A stretch of 64,000 nucleotides of DNA from an uncultured SAR86 cluster bacterium (GTDB lineage: Bacteria > Pseudomonadota > Gammaproteobacteria > Magnimaribacterales > D2472). The position numbers and the translations under genes are program-made. Position 1 is the first letter of the stretch. Each line of letters opens with the position of its first letter. The notes under the pieces are model-generated. The model was not told where the DNA came from. It saw only the letters and a program-made list of their open reading frames with translations, and ran no database searches. The stretch spans positions 1-64,000 of the forward strand of contig CALSSL010000001.1 in NCBI GenBank assembly GCA_943789005.1, read 5' to 3'. Shown one piece after another: positions 50,322-56,667 of the stretch.

Positions 50322-50933
50322 TTAGAAGAAAAAAAACCTATTCTTCTTAAGTTCTTTTGCGCATCCCCAGTATTGCTGTTGATATTTTGTAGATCTCGCT
50401 TGCACTCTGTCTGCTACTTTGATTAGCCACGGCTTTTTTCTATAAGTTTTTTTCTTAAAGCCTCCATACCCTTCATGATAAGCAAGATAAAGTGAACGCG
50501 CATCTAGCCTATCAAAACCTTGATAATATCCTTTGCTTGCATACCAGCCAATGAAATCTGCTGAATCTTTAAAATCTTTTCTATTTGCCCTAGTATTTCC
50601 AGTTTCCTCTTTATAATCTTCCCAGGTCATATTTAAAGCTTGAGAGTAGCCAGCAGCAGTTGATTCTCTTTTCCATGGAATGACCCATAGTAATTTTGTT
50701 CTCTTAGGCTTTGCATCTGATTGAAAGCTTGATTCTTGATACACAAAAGACATTAGTACATATGGTGGTATTTTCCATCTTTTTTCAGATTGCATAACAG
50801 CCTTATACCAACTTTTTTTTTCTTCAAAAATTAGGCAGATGTTATCAGGATTCTTTGGGGGTGTTGCCATGCATGACTGAAGCGTAAAACCCAATAAAAA
50901 GATTAATGAAAATTTAAAATATTTAATATTCAT
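50322..50933 (-). CDS. Lytic transglycosylase-domain lipoprotein
   Basis: 203 residues. Lipoprotein signal FLLGFTLQSCMA. The SLT-type core has the catalytic glutamate in FVYQESSF, AGYSQALNMTWEDYKEE and ARSLYLAYHEGYGGF. Such proteins cleave peptidoglycan glycan strands. It ends with a Phe-rich tail (NRFFFF). Overlaps the ligase stop by one base and is convergent with the M16C gene. Confidence 0.8.
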   Translation of the reverse strand: MNIKYFKFSLIFLLGFTLQSCMATPPKNPDNICLIFEEKKSWYKAVMQSEKRWKIPPYVLMSFVYQESSFQSDAKPKRTKLLWVIPWKRESTAAGYSQALNMTWEDYKEETGNTRANRKDFKDSADFIGWYASKGYYQGFDRLDARSLYLAYHEGYGGFKKKTYRKKPWLIKVADRVQARSTKYQQQYWGCAKELKKNRFFFF

Positions 50934-52216
50934 TAGATCTTTTCACCTGGTTCAAACCCTCTAAAAGTTTTAAAACGAGGAAATCTTAAACTAAAGTGCT
51001 CACCTTCGATACTTTGGGTTATAGCATCAGCCCTGATTTCAATTAATTGACCTATTAAAGAATCTCTAGCTTTCCAAAATTTTTCTCTATCATCGTCTGT
51101 AAGGCCACTTCCCACGCTTAAAGAGAAAAACTTACCATCATCTTCTCCTTCAACTGAAAAGGCTCCAAGCTTGCCCGCATGCTTTCCAGTGCCTTCTTGA
51201 ATTTGAGTAACCTTAAGGGTAACTTCTATAAAAGGTTTTATTTTAAGCCAGGCATGACTTCTTTTAGATTCGTATATGTCGTTAACAGGTTTGATCATCA
51301 ATCCTTCATAACCCTCTTCGAGCGCCTTCTTATTCATGTCTGAAAATATTTTTTGACCATCTTTAGTATCAAAATCTAAGATTGCATATTCAACAGGCTT
51401 GATACAAGAATCGAAATTTTTTGATATATCATTAAGTGAATCTTTTCTCTCCAGACTATTAAGCTTGCTTTTGCCCTTATTGAACTCATCCAAAGGTAGT
51501 ATGTCAAAGAGAGCTAAATAAGCATCGTCAGTTTTAGCATTTGTTTTTCGATGCACCTGCTTCATAAGTGATTGAAAATCATCACTAACTACCTCTCCAT
51601 CAAATACTAAATTGTTGAATTCTTTTTTGTTCAGAGCATCTTCTATGTGAGGAAAATTGCCTAAAATTTTTCCATTTCTGCTATACAAAGTTGTGCTATT
51701 GTTTCTAGTGATGGCTATGACTCTAACTCCATCATATTTATATTCAACGAGACATTTTCCTTGAATTTTTTTTGGGTGTTTTGCGCCATCGTGAGCTAGC
51801 ATGCATGAAAAAACAGGAACGCTATATTTTAAGCCCATTTTTTTTGAAACATTGTTGACTGTTTTTTGGCTTACTCCACACCTGAGATCTTTTATTAGAA
51901 TTCTTCTGTACCAATCATTCCATTGCTCTGAGGTTGCTAGAGACATTATGTGTAGAATTTCATCTCTAGCAGCATGACCAGTTCTTTCCCTATTTATTAG
52001 AAGCTGGGCTGAGAATTTAAATGTTTCCCAATCAAGACCCTTGCCATCATTGCTAGATTCTGGAACTTGTTTAACACCAAATGTTACTAATGCATCCAAA
52101 CACATTGATAACCCTTCTTGTAAAACAACATCATTGAGATTGTCTTCTATAACACCTTCTTTAAATAATCTACTATTATCACTCTCTAATTTCTGAATTA
52201 TTTTCCAGGGTTTCAT
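50933..52216 (-). CDS. ATP-dependent DNA ligase
   Basis: 427 residues. Nucleotidyltransferase motif I is EYKYDGVR with the AMP-accepting Lys at about residue 160. LYSRNGK, FDGEVV, EGLMIKP (motif IV) and WLKIKP (motif V) follow, then an OB-fold with GSGLTDDDR and RFPRF. The N-terminal domain has RERTGHAARDEI and IKDLRCGVSQKT, which I know from T4-like phage ligases. There are no zinc-finger, HhH or BRCT regions, so it is not an NAD-dependent LigA. It directly follows smc-zipA, where gammaproteobacteria usually carry ligA. Confidence 0.9.
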   Translation of the reverse strand: MKPWKIIQKLESDNSRLFKEGVIEDNLNDVVLQEGLSMCLDALVTFGVKQVPESSNDGKGLDWETFKFSAQLLINRERTGHAARDEILHIMSLATSEQWNDWYRRILIKDLRCGVSQKTVNNVSKKMGLKYSVPVFSCMLAHDGAKHPKKIQGKCLVEYKYDGVRVIAITRNNSTTLYSRNGKILGNFPHIEDALNKKEFNNLVFDGEVVSDDFQSLMKQVHRKTNAKTDDAYLALFDILPLDEFNKGKSKLNSLERKDSLNDISKNFDSCIKPVEYAILDFDTKDGQKIFSDMNKKALEEGYEGLMIKPVNDIYESKRSHAWLKIKPFIEVTLKVTQIQEGTGKHAGKLGAFSVEGEDDGKFFSLSVGSGLTDDDREKFWKARDSLIGQLIEIRADAITQSIEGEHFSLRFPRFKTFRGFEPGEKI

Positions 52217-52234: not shown

Positions 52235-52867
52235 TCATTTATTTTCTGAGGTACTTAACTGCTTCAATCTCATAATTTCCTGCGCCTGAGATTCTATATG
52301 CGAGATCATTTGTTTTGTAATAGGCATTCTTTCTTGATCACATATATTTGCATAAAATTTTTCTGAGAACTGATAAGCAAAATTAACCATTTCTTTTACT
52401 GAACCTAAAGGATCATTGACGTTATTAAGATCTGTTGCCAAAAGAACAGCAAAAGTTTCTGTTTCGTTTTCAAATGTGCCAGGATTTAAAGCATTTGCTA
52501 TACGAAATGATTCTTTATTATTTCTATCTTTAATAACGAAAAAACCATTCGTGAGAATTGCATTTGAATTAGTCATAAAGCCATATATTTGATCAATATC
52601 AAACATAGATTTATCAATAGATATTAAATTGAGGACAACAAGTTTTTGTTCTTGATATTGAATATCTTTATGCTCATTAAAATCGAAGGCTTTTTGAGAT
52701 TTCGTCTGTATTTCATCTATCTCTTTTATCTCAAAAGAGTCTATTACAGGTTCAATATTAACTTTTAGCTCTCCAGAATTAGAAATTTTTCTAATAAATA
52801 GAAATGTAATAATTAAAAAAATTAGTACAGATAAACCTATTAGATATATGTCAATATTTTGTTCCAT
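52235..52867 (-). CDS. zipA: Cell division protein ZipA
   Basis: 210 residues. One N-terminal membrane segment (about residues 7-25), a short linker (shorter than in E. coli) and the C-terminal FtsZ-binding domain (KLVVLNLISIDKSMFDIDQI, NGFFVIKD, TFAVLLATDLNN). It anchors the FtsZ ring to the inner membrane. It overlaps the end of smc by one base. Confidence 0.88.
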   Translation of the reverse strand: MEQNIDIYLIGLSVLIFLIITFLFIRKISNSGELKVNIEPVIDSFEIKEIDEIQTKSQKAFDFNEHKDIQYQEQKLVVLNLISIDKSMFDIDQIYGFMTNSNAILTNGFFVIKDRNNKESFRIANALNPGTFENETETFAVLLATDLNNVNDPLGSVKEMVNFAYQFSEKFYANICDQERMPITKQMISHIESQAQEIMRLKQLSTSENK

Positions 52868-55854
52868 CAGGCCTCAGCAAATTCTAATGCTTGATTCACA
52901 TCAACGGATACCATTCTGGAAACACCGGCCTCCTGCATTGTGACACCCATCAAATGATCACTCTTTTCCATTGATACTTTGTTATGAGTAATAAATATAA
53001 ATTGAACTGTTTTTGACATCTCTTCAACCATATTTATAAATCGCATTGTATTTAGATCATCAAGGGGAGCATCTACCTCATCTAATATACAAAATGGTGC
53101 AGGGTTGAGCTCAAATATTGCAAAAACTAATGCTAAAGCAGTCAAAGCTTTTTCACCACCAGATAATTGTGAAATAGAAGAATTCTTTTTGCCTGGAGGC
53201 CTTGCCATAATAACCACACCAGCATTTAATGCATCATCTTCAGTTAAGGTAAGCTCTGCTATACCTCCGCCAAATAATTTTGAAAATACCTCTTTCATTC
53301 TGTTGTTTATAGCGTCAAAGCTATCTTGAAATCTAGTCTTTGTTTCTAAATCAATTGTTTTGATTGCGCCAGTGAGCTTTTCTAGAGCCTCGGTTAAATC
53401 ATTATATTGAATATCTAATTCTTCCTTTCTTTTTGATTCAGATGCTATTTCCTCTGGAGCTGCTAAATTAATTGCACCAAGACGAATAATTTTAGATTGA
53501 ATATCTGTCAGACTATTTTGCAACTCATTGATATCCATACCCTCATACTTTGAAAAATCAATATTTTCTATCTTTACTCCAGACTCTTTAATTTTAGTAT
53601 TAGCGTTATCTAAATTTATTTCATGGGTTTTAAGCTCGAGTCTTAAGTTTGTTACTTTTTCACCAATTGATTTAAGATCAAGATCAGCAATAGATTTTTG
53701 ATTTTCTAATTCTCTCAAGCTATTGTTAAATTCTGATTGCTTTTGTCTGATATGAGTTAATTTTGATTCAGCAACAGAGCTCTTTTCAACAAGATCTGAC
53801 ATAATTTTTTGGATTTCAAGTTTTTTAGCCTTGCCTTCTGAAATCATCTTATTAAGCTCATTTTGCCTTTCAAGATACTCTTCTGGGGAAGCTAAATTAG
53901 ATGACCCTAATTCAGCAATATTTTTTTGAATTTCATCTAATGAATTTTCTAGACTCACAAGATCTGCTCCTACGTATTTAGATGAATCTAATTCAGATAA
54001 ACTGATACCAGCTTTATCTAAAACTATGGAGGCATTTTCTAGATTGATCTCATGAGTTCTTAATTCAAGCCTGTAATCAGAAATATTTTTTTCCAAACTT
54101 CTTAGCTCATTAGATGCTAATGACTTGCTGCTGTCTAAATCTCTAATTTTTTCATCAATGTTAAGCTGATTTTCCAACTTAGAGTCCAATTCATTTTTTA
54201 TGATTATATTTTTTTCTTTTAACTCAGATAATTGGTTATTTTTAGATAACGCATCTTCAGAAGTTGTTTTAATAAGATCTTCTAGCTGGTTCTTTCTATT
54301 TAAAAAGTCAGCTGTATAATTTTTAGATTGATCTGATGCAATTTTAAGAATATTTATTAGAAGTACCTTTAATTCATTGACCTTGGAATTTAATGAATCT
54401 GCCTTGGAGCCAAATGCTTTCAACAGTTCAGTGATCGAATCAAGTAAATGAATAGCTTTTTCCTTTGGACTTAAATGCTCGTTGTTTGACTCTTTTTGCA
54501 ATGCATCAGAGTAATTGCTGCTTGCTTTCTCAAAATCCAACCTTGCGTTCTCTTCAATCTTATTGAGATTTTGAAGTGCTCCTTCTAACCTTGCAATATC
54601 AGCTTCAATAGAATATTTTTTTTGTTGAAGTGATGTTATTTCTTCAGTAATTTCTGTCTGATCTCCTTTAACTGCATCTACAATACTTTGTTTTGAATCT
54701 AGTTCATTTTGTTTTTGTATAATTTTTTCTTCTAAAGGTTTTATAGATATATCAATGACGCTTTTTTGCTTAAGGGCGTCAAGAGCTTTAACAATAGCAA
54801 TATCAAGCTTCAATTCTTTTTCTTTAGGGCTTAGATCCTTGAAACTTGATTCTTTTTCTATTGCATCCTGATAGCTGGCTTTTGCTCTCTCAAGAGCATC
54901 TGTATTAGAAATTTCTAATTTAGAAACATTTTGAAGATCTGATTCATATTTAGCTATCTCAGCCCCTATTGAATAAAAGTTTCTTTGAGCATGTTCATAT
55001 GCATCTACAACAGAAGCATTTTGTGTTCTATGTTCATCTATTTGAGCTTGTTTTGAATCAGATTCAGCTTGTTTAATTTTTAAATCTCTATTCAAGGCAT
55101 CAAGGTTCTTTTGAAGTTTATCTCGATTATTCTTAGCTTCAAGAGAGTATAGTATTGCAATATCAATTTGCTTCTGACTTTCATCTTTTTTAAATTGATT
55201 ATATTTTTCTGCTGCATTTGCTTGATTCTCAAGCCTTTTGATTAATCTCTCAATTTCATCTTTAATATCTCTAACTCTTGATAAATTTTCTTTAGTTTTT
55301 TTGATTCTACTCTCGGTTTCTCTTCTTCTTTCTCTATACTTTGAAACTCCTGCAGCCTCTTCGATATGAGTTCTTAGCTCTTCAGGTTTAGCACTTACCA
55401 GTCTACTAACCATGCCTTGTTCAATAATTGCATATGAGCTTGGGCCCAATCCAGTTCCTAGAAATATGTCTTGAACATCTTTTCTTCTGCATTTTGTACT
55501 ATTAATAAAATAAGTAGATTGAGCATCTCTAGTCATAACTCTTTTTATTGAAATTTCAGTAAATGAAGCATATTCCCCACCAATTTTTCCACTTGAATTA
55601 TCAAATAATAGCTCGATGCTACATTGGCCAGAAGGTTTTCTATTTTCAGATCCGTTAAAAATAACATCGACCATAGATTCGCCGCGAAGATTTTTAGCAG
55701 ATAGCTCTCCAAGAACCCATCTAACAGCATCAATAACATTAGACTTACCGCAGCCGTTAGGACCTACAACACCAACTAAATTTGATGGGAAAGATATCTT
55801 CGTTGGATCTACGAAACTTTTAAAACCTGAAAGTTTTATATGATTTAACTGCAT
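52867..55854 (-). CDS. smc: Chromosome segregation protein SMC, short form without a recognisable hinge
   Basis: 995 residues against about 1160-1190 usual. Walker A GPNGCGKSN is at residues 31-39, the signature LSGGEKAL at 897-904, and Walker B FCILDEVDAPLDD at 921-933, so the ATPase head is intact. In the middle (about 480-560) I find only helical sequence (LLKAFGSKADSLNSKVNEL, FLNRKNQLEDLIK) and no Gly-rich globular hinge of about 150 residues. The arms carry two internal duplications: about 293-370 versus 413-490 (both with LSPKEK) and about 574-670 versus 717-815 (RLELRTHEINLENA / RLELKTHEINLDNA). The frame is unbroken. Confidence 0.93.
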   Translation of the reverse strand: MQLNHIKLSGFKSFVDPTKISFPSNLVGVVGPNGCGKSNVIDAVRWVLGELSAKNLRGESMVDVIFNGSENRKPSGQCSIELLFDNSSGKIGGEYASFTEISIKRVMTRDAQSTYFINSTKCRRKDVQDIFLGTGLGPSSYAIIEQGMVSRLVSAKPEELRTHIEEAAGVSKYRERRRETESRIKKTKENLSRVRDIKDEIERLIKRLENQANAAEKYNQFKKDESQKQIDIAILYSLEAKNNRDKLQKNLDALNRDLKIKQAESDSKQAQIDEHRTQNASVVDAYEHAQRNFYSIGAEIAKYESDLQNVSKLEISNTDALERAKASYQDAIEKESSFKDLSPKEKELKLDIAIVKALDALKQKSVIDISIKPLEEKIIQKQNELDSKQSIVDAVKGDQTEITEEITSLQQKKYSIEADIARLEGALQNLNKIEENARLDFEKASSNYSDALQKESNNEHLSPKEKAIHLLDSITELLKAFGSKADSLNSKVNELKVLLINILKIASDQSKNYTADFLNRKNQLEDLIKTTSEDALSKNNQLSELKEKNIIIKNELDSKLENQLNIDEKIRDLDSSKSLASNELRSLEKNISDYRLELRTHEINLENASIVLDKAGISLSELDSSKYVGADLVSLENSLDEIQKNIAELGSSNLASPEEYLERQNELNKMISEGKAKKLEIQKIMSDLVEKSSVAESKLTHIRQKQSEFNNSLRELENQKSIADLDLKSIGEKVTNLRLELKTHEINLDNANTKIKESGVKIENIDFSKYEGMDINELQNSLTDIQSKIIRLGAINLAAPEEIASESKRKEELDIQYNDLTEALEKLTGAIKTIDLETKTRFQDSFDAINNRMKEVFSKLFGGGIAELTLTEDDALNAGVVIMARPPGKKNSSISQLSGGEKALTALALVFAIFELNPAPFCILDEVDAPLDDLNTMRFINMVEEMSKTVQFIFITHNKVSMEKSDHLMGVTMQEAGVSRMVSVDVNQALEFAEA

Positions 55855-55887: not shown

Positions 55888-56667
55888 CTATTGTTCTCTT
55901 TTTAACCATTCATTTGGTCTAATATTATAGGAATTTATATGGTTATTTTGATCAAACAATAGAGCATTTTCAAAAAAATAATCCAAGTTTTTTTCAATAC
56001 AAAATAATGACGTTTTCAGCTCCAAAGTTTCTTGATTCAGATAAGCAGAAGCAAGATCAAAACCAGGAATTGATGAATTTTTATTATTTAATATAACTTC
56101 AAAAGAGTTCTGAAAATTTGAACTCGCAATAGGGATATTAGGGCCATTCATAATAAATAACGAAACGATTCCTTCAAAATTTAAGCATTCATCAGGCAGA
56201 GAAAATGAAAGTATAAATTTAGAATTTGCAAAAATAGGAAACTTCAAATCTCGAAGTTGAGTATACAAAGTATAAAAAACAAATTTTTCATCAGCTGTCT
56301 TGAAATATTTTTCTGATAAAGAAATAAGGCTCTCTGCAGCTTGAAGTTTCTGGTCTGACATTGCCTTTTGGATATAGCTTTGAGCCCAATAAATTTTATT
56401 TTCTTCATTAACAATTTGATCTAATGAGTTAAATAAATTTATTGGTATTTCATTGTCCTGCTTAATTATTAATAAGATTTTATTATTTATTTCTTGTTCT
56501 TTAATGGACCCGAGAAAAGCATATTTACCAATGAATGAAAATAAACAAAAAATTAATACTAAAAATGAAATGCCGAAGATATATCCCTTATTTTTTGTTT
56601 TTGGAGACAATAAATATGCATATATAGGAAATAATGAAATAAAGGCTAGCAAATAAACTAATAGCAT
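55888..56667 (-). CDS. ccmI: CcmI/CycH-like cytochrome c maturation protein
   Basis: 259 residues. Two N-terminal membrane segments (about residues 1-20 and 28-48) and a helical, TPR-like region (KIYWAQSYIQKAM, AAESLISLSEKYFK), then a beta-rich periplasmic domain with FDLASAYLNQETLELK. It is divergent and shorter than typical CcmI (about 400), so the assignment rests largely on its place after ccmH. CcmI ferries apocytochrome c to CcmF. Confidence 0.65.
   Translation of the reverse strand: MLLVYLLAFISLFPIYAYLLSPKTKNKGYIFGISFLVLIFCLFSFIGKYAFLGSIKEQEINNKILLIIKQDNEIPINLFNSLDQIVNEENKIYWAQSYIQKAMSDQKLQAAESLISLSEKYFKTADEKFVFYTLYTQLRDLKFPIFANSKFILSFSLPDECLNFEGIVSLFIMNGPNIPIASSNFQNSFEVILNNKNSSIPGFDLASAYLNQETLELKTSLFCIEKNLDYFFENALLFDQNNHINSYNIRPNEWLKREQ

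Follow-up and report, generated by a model that had tools for sequence, protein, structure and literature searches.

A hinge-less SMC with matched arm duplications in the marine SAR86 lineage

A closed ring held by a dimerising hinge is central to current models of loop extrusion by SMC complexes. SMC arms are antiparallel coiled coils, both strands of which must lengthen by an equal amount of coil. RecN and SbcC have no SMC hinge. Hinge-less SMCs have been reported from marine Actinobacteria (Sussfeld et al. 2025, PMC12153180), and the sections of that paper covered here likewise describe SbcC as free of an SMC hinge. Kleisin context, duplicated arms and two-state arm lengths are not discussed in these sections, and SAR86 has 0 occurrences in the paper. 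In B. subtilis, a hinge-less Smc can still dimerise through its arms (PMC5526789), and Smc arms are functional at certain lengths only (PMC5344682). We analysed a stretch of 64,000 nucleotides (the window) from an uncultured SAR86 cluster bacterium, which encodes an SMC of 995 residues. The gene nests within SAR86, in the Gammaproteobacteria, and outside the reported actinobacterial hinge-less clade; the named loci closest to it come from SAR86 single-cell genomes and MAGs. Hinge-less SMCs are already known as a category (PMC12153180); what is new here is a hinge-less SAR86 SMC with matched arm duplications.

Judged by its sequence, the ORF is a true prokaryotic SMC with intact ATPase heads. 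The protein scores 843 bits against TIGR02168 (SMC_prok_B, NCBIfam; cut-off 567 bits), and the Walker A, signature and Walker B motifs are all intact at the residues where the initial annotation had placed them (Table 1). The ORF coordinates given there hold as well, on the minus strand, with the coding part without the stop at 55854-52870.

Table 1. Features of the hinge-less smc locus in the window
Feature	Residues	Position	Strand	Basis or remark
smc, hinge-less SMC, 995 aa		52867..55854	minus	Starts with ATG at 55854, stop ends at 52867; length kept at 995-996 aa in 30 relatives
N-terminal ATPase half-head	1-170	55345..55854	minus	SMC_N/AAA_23 matches
Walker A GPNGCGKSN	31-39	55738..55764	minus	Sequence; invariant in the alignment
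Extra N-arm copy N1	284-395	54670..55005	minus	120-residue offset duplication; SH-aLRT 100
N-arm copy N2	404-515	54310..54645	minus	Groups with single N copy of short SMCs
Tip hairpin in hinge position, LSPKEKA...QSK	461-511	54322..54474	minus	AF2; conservation; hydrophobicity
Extra C-arm copy C1	518-660	53875..54303	minus	143-residue offset duplication; SH-aLRT 96
Duplicated joint-like coiled-coil interruption, mid-arm	615-656	53887..54012	minus	AF2 repeats head-proximal joint pattern
C-arm copy C2	661-803	53446..53874	minus	Groups with single C copy of short SMCs
Original head-proximal joint	758-799	53458..53583	minus	AF2; conserved LGAINLAA motif
C-terminal ATPase half-head	830-995	52870..53367	minus	Sequence, family matches
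ABC signature LSGGEKAL	897-904	53143..53166	minus	Sequence
Walker B FCILDEVDAPLDD	921-933	53056..53094	minus	Sequence
zipA, next gene downstream		52235..52867	minus	PF04354 3.1e-13

The missing hinge, claimed in the initial annotation from the letters of the gene, is borne out by three profile comparisons with working controls. The SMC hinge profile PF06470, proposed there as a check, has no match in the 995-residue protein, is not among the 25 families listed for 33 SAR86 SMCs scanned at E≤10, and matches 18/18 ordinary gammaproteobacterial SMCs as a positive control. It matched 0/101 related SAR86 genomes, which also speaks against the alternative raised at the time, a gene of normal length in the clade with an assembly deletion here. 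PF06470 was dropped as the sole hinge test, as some full-length gammaproteobacterial SMCs (1130-1190 aa) are likewise missed by it, and for this reason a hinge HMM was built from 15 gammaproteobacterial SMCs. This HMM recovers the hinge in the divergent full-length SMCs missed by PF06470, down to 17 bits. Its best score on 93 short SMCs was 3.9 bits (E 0.24), and it had no hit among 3646 ORFs from the window's genome, which is 91% complete. Aligning each SAR86 arm and tip profile to the hinge profile with hhalign gave a probability of at most 0.3% (positive control 100%). The full-length SMCs missed by PF06470 could suggest that a diverged but real hinge domain, unseen by profiles, sits in the centre of the SAR86 protein. 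Such a hinge is extremely improbable and was rejected, because the more sensitive HMM was negative with its positive controls positive: the SMCs missed by PF06470 are 1130-1190 aa long and found by this HMM, whereas the SAR86 proteins are not found, and only ~50 residues, predicted to be helical, lie between the arms. Short SAR86 forms leave no room for a hinge, because arms and tip together span only 314-324 aa in families f1 and f4 compared with 751-760 aa, hinge included, in canonical SMCs. The SAR86 protein is hence an SMC of heads and arms without the central hinge domain.

SMC lengths differ by family of the order, with 727-733 or 995-996 aa in f1, 821-827 aa in f2, 809-810 aa in f3 and 732-736 aa in f4. 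As every SAR86 genome searched lacks a hinge match, the sequence record places the loss of the canonical hinge and distal arm before the diversification of SAR86, with the 995-aa form as a later lengthening. The initial suggestion that the protein had lost its hinge is supported in this sense, but the event is old and order-wide rather than specific to this gene. The partner genes are widely kept. The genes scpA and scpB were each found in 53/61 SAR86 genomes covering all 18 genera, and they adjoin in the window's genome (genome coordinates C1:740304-741457), which encodes both the ScpA kleisin and the ScpB KITE protein. ParB is encoded in 38/41 SAR86 genomes, including that of the window (G000, C1:503603-504139). 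A consensus parS with 0-1 mismatches was not found in the G000 genome (the window and L237-L300), the closest match being a single two-mismatch site in L295. Only one SMC-type ORF was found in this genome (91% complete), and no second one.

From the gene content, the SAR86 complex still looks like SMC-ScpAB. We suggest, with a probability of roughly 0.55 for the explanation as a whole, that the SAR86 SMC, the sole SMC found in a SAR86 genome, works as a shortened hinge-less SMC-ScpAB condensin with a tip-to-tip hairpin dimer and paired arm lengthening. With ScpA, ScpB and ParB all retained, an ordinary ATP-driven head cycle and ordinary kleisin bridging would be expected. The SMC could alternatively have left condensin work for repair, as the absence of an SMC hinge in RecN and SbcC might suggest. 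Such a role has very little to commend it, as SMC_prok_B is by far the best family match, the RecN equivalog scores 28.7 bits against a cut-off of 407.85, the CxxC zinc hook found at the tip of Rad50/SbcC occurs in 0/87 SAR86 proteins, and scpAB and parB are kept with no other SMC present.

Downstream of smc lie zipA, then a DNA ligase, then a transglycosylase (slt), and the smc-zipA order is kept in the SAR86 loci examined. In the window, the ligase slot of this operon holds an ATP-dependent DNA ligase of ~430 aa (50933-52216, minus strand). An ATP-dependent ligase occupies the slot in this genus and in several short-form genomes, and an NAD+ LigA occupies it in the relatives L063, L064, L070, L075, L080, L082 and L084. 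Elsewhere in the window's genome, which is 91% complete, a tblastn search with the L064 LigA found no NAD+ ligase, and an ATP-dependent enzyme may have taken over from the replicative ligase at this very locus. A 259-aa ORF with no family match lies between cytochrome c biogenesis genes and smc (window 55888-56667, minus strand).

In the SAR86 protein, the arms close in a plain helical hairpin, as sequence and predicted structure show. AF2 models of both the short and the long form end the arm helices in a short turn with no globular domain; the models are monomers only, built from 16-22 sequences, with an overall pLDDT of 71-72 that drops under 50 at several of the breaks. The long form is predicted as a helix at 463-479, a turn at 480-481 and a helix at 482-614, equivalent to the short form. 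The short form is predicted as a helix at 171-339 (interrupted by one residue at 279), a break in the LSP motif region, a helix at 343-360, a turn at 361-365 and a helix at 366-494, and its best solved-structure match is 5xei, which comprises an SMC head, coiled coil and joint. Mean pairwise identity is 0.56 and 0.53 in the tip helices compared with 0.35 and 0.34 in the adjacent arm, and in short forms the hydrophobic fraction of the tip is 0.35 compared with 0.17-0.27 in the flanking arm. The sole internal length variation in the short-form alignment lies in the hairpin turn. The hydrophobic maximum is at the centre of the arm and tip region in f1 and off centre in f4, and the tip sequence varies between SAR86 families. 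The off-centre maximum and the family-specific tips weaken the case for a tip interface universal to SAR86.

On these models, we infer that the helical tip hairpin is the dimerisation site. In the most likely arrangement, the conserved hydrophobic hairpins of two SMCs would meet at their tips in a four-helix bundle, helped by arm-arm contacts. The tips might instead not dimerise at all, and engaged heads, ScpA/ScpB and side-by-side arm contacts only would then form an open-topped clamp rather than a closed ring. Arm-arm rod contacts have been credited with the dimerisation of hinge-less B. subtilis Smc (PMC5526789), and the SAR86 tip is short and its sequence not common to all families. An open clamp nevertheless seems rather unlikely given that conservation and hydrophobicity in f1 are higher in the tip than in the arm beside it, and that a Wadjet core without its hinge segment lost DNA cleavage once a ring-closing engineered elbow crosslink was reduced (PMC12647877). 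The conserved tip could also be a binding site for a partner instead of for self-interaction, with an unrelated SAR86 protein serving as a hinge in trans. There is little room for such a partner, as the window's genome has no hinge-type ORF and the linked genes are only zipA, the DNA ligase and the transglycosylase. The initial view of hinge-less dimerisation as a new mechanism holds only in part, as hinge-less SMCs were already reported in marine Actinobacteria in 2025 (PMC12153180) and other streamlined lineages have short SMCs of a similar kind.

The long form differs from the short form of sister genera by one extra segment in each arm. Aligned globally with the 732-aa protein of L067, the 995-aa protein has two insertions and no more, one of 120 residues (N arm) and one of 143 (C arm); their total of 263 makes up the full difference (995-732; 732+120+143=995). 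The two internal duplications recognised initially are real and each lies wholly in one arm, with local scores far above shuffled sequence on the N side (141 against 47±8, maximum 73) and on the C side (243 against 51±8, maximum 85). The N and C arms were also considered as copies of one another, and this was rejected as the similarity was not significant. The arms had been proposed to be rebuilt by duplication, and this holds in the form of one tandem copy gained per arm, with arms and tip returning to canonical arm length. N1 carries an FY.IGAEIA motif and a decayed LSPKE motif, and C2 contains LGAINLAAPEE. In repeat-unit trees, all N1 copies form one clade and all C1 copies another (SH-aLRT in Table 1), and N2 and C2 group with the unduplicated segments of short SMCs, in part following the genera. 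The single N1 and C1 clades suggest that each extra copy most likely arose once. Identities of 25-39% between N1 and N2 and of 31-50% between C1 and C2 indicate that the duplication event is old, and across genera the extra copies have diverged about as much as neighbouring segments.

The C-side copy exceeds the N-side copy by 23 aa and includes the SMC joint. In the joint crystal of B. subtilis, 66 N residues (188-253) face 90 C residues (922-1011), an excess of 24 (PMC5526789), compared with 23 in the SAR86 long form. The 23-aa asymmetry thus corresponds to the excess built into the joint, because the C-side copy holds a joint with the longer C strand. Both arms grow by matched amounts in length and presumably in register, and one extra copy per arm, 120 N and 143 C, would keep the antiparallel coil aligned. 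In the AF2 model of the long form, the C arm shows a joint-like pattern of breaks at two places, 615-631 and 758-774. Arms and tip of the long form comprise 582 aa, and canonical SMCs have ~580 aa once the ~173-aa hinge is subtracted from 751-760. This match may be a coincidence. By analogy, the return to a near-canonical arm length fits the arm-length rule of B. subtilis (PMC5344682).

Within f1 (107 genomes, 94 with a match), intact frames all belong to the 995-aa or the 727-733-aa class, based on 63 complete proteins. Forms with a single duplication (852 or 875 aa) were absent from the 94 matched family genomes. The complete long forms are exactly 995 aa in 29/30 cases and 996 aa in one, at identities down to 57%, and dN/dS of smc is ~0.05. 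An assembly deletion or frameshift was rejected, as the exact lengths recur in dozens of genomes under this dN/dS; the initial reading had likewise found no frameshift. One g8 long-form smc (G072:C2:294655-297366, minus strand) has one in-frame TGA and is either a pseudogene or a sequencing error. Both length states occur within genera g8 and g9, and long forms appear at three places in the head tree, which amounts to at least three changes of state. Given these changes and the single origin of the extra copies, repeated paired loss or an exchange of arm segments between relatives is needed; the changes on the head tree are costly if losses were independent. Since intermediates are absent, unequal arms appear not to be tolerated, and long and short forms would interconvert as a pair. 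A wider and tentative proposal, which we hold to be possible but somewhat doubtful, is that the second joint of the long form acts as a mid-arm elbow, and that SAR86 SMCs are hinge-less condensins whose helical tip evolved anew as the dimerisation site and whose arms changed repeatedly from one of two lengths to the other, matched segments being gained or lost in both arms together.

Short SMCs without a hinge match occur beyond SAR86, in the gammaproteobacterial families f42 and f145 (930-947 aa, genomes of 1.0-1.1 Mb), in L066, and in another class of the phylum, where the complete 1.2-Mb genome G851 encodes an SMC of 809 aa. The loci outside SAR86 at which small genomes carry such hinge-less SMCs (809-947 aa) are L233:340-2766 (minus strand), L197, L199, L200, L066, L205 and L207. 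The head tree separates f42 and f145 from SAR86, on long branches and with unsure placement. Visual similarity could suggest a shared ancestry of the SAR86 tip with the tips of f42, f145 and L233, but profile comparison carries the likeness only in the head-proximal arm. The f42, f145, L066 and G851 cases, together with the published actinobacterial case (PMC12153180), suggest that the hinge was lost repeatedly and, in the cases seen here, in streamlined genomes. A 988-aa SMC in a MAG labelled Legionellales (L065:1449-4412, plus strand) is shortened with its hinge kept.

If SMC-ScpAB operates without a hinge across an entire order of abundant marine bacteria, this would reveal which parts of the complex can be dispensed with; evidently, evolution can rebuild an SMC in the absence of the hinge that the family was thought to require. 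For structural work, the 732-aa protein would offer a natural condensin of unusually small size. The matched duplications (120 and 143, differing by the joint excess) indicate, from a natural case, that neither arm can change without the other, and close relatives differing mainly in length state make the arm-length rule of 2017 testable.

Among known systems, the actinobacterial hinge-less SMC, as far as the covered sections of PMC12153180 describe it, shares with the SAR86 protein the SMC heads, the coiled-coil arms, the lack of both hinge and CxxC hook, and an origin in abundant ocean bacteria. It belongs to a separate actinobacterial clade, and the SAR86 gene was compared with it by description rather than by sequence. 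Rad50/SbcC with its zinc hook and RecN are also SMC-like ATPases with a non-SMC tip, but the SAR86 protein has no CxxC hook, its best family score is SMC, and kleisin partners are present. Against a MukB identity there is the indirect observation that the SAR86 protein scores best to SMC_prok_B and its genome encodes ScpAB. Compared with canonical bacterial SMC (TIGR02168; B. subtilis Smc), SAR86 retains the heads, the joint, scpA/scpB/parB and, as in other gammaproteobacteria, zipA as operon partner, and its long-form arms are near canonical length. It differs in the absence of the hinge, a hairpin tip in place of the distal arm, and the duplicated joint region mid-arm. Mini-Smc constructs (Burmann et al. 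2017, PMC5344682) likewise have arms resized equally on both strands, with only certain lengths appearing usable, whereas the constructs retained the hinge and the SAR86 forms are natural, recurrent and hinge-less.
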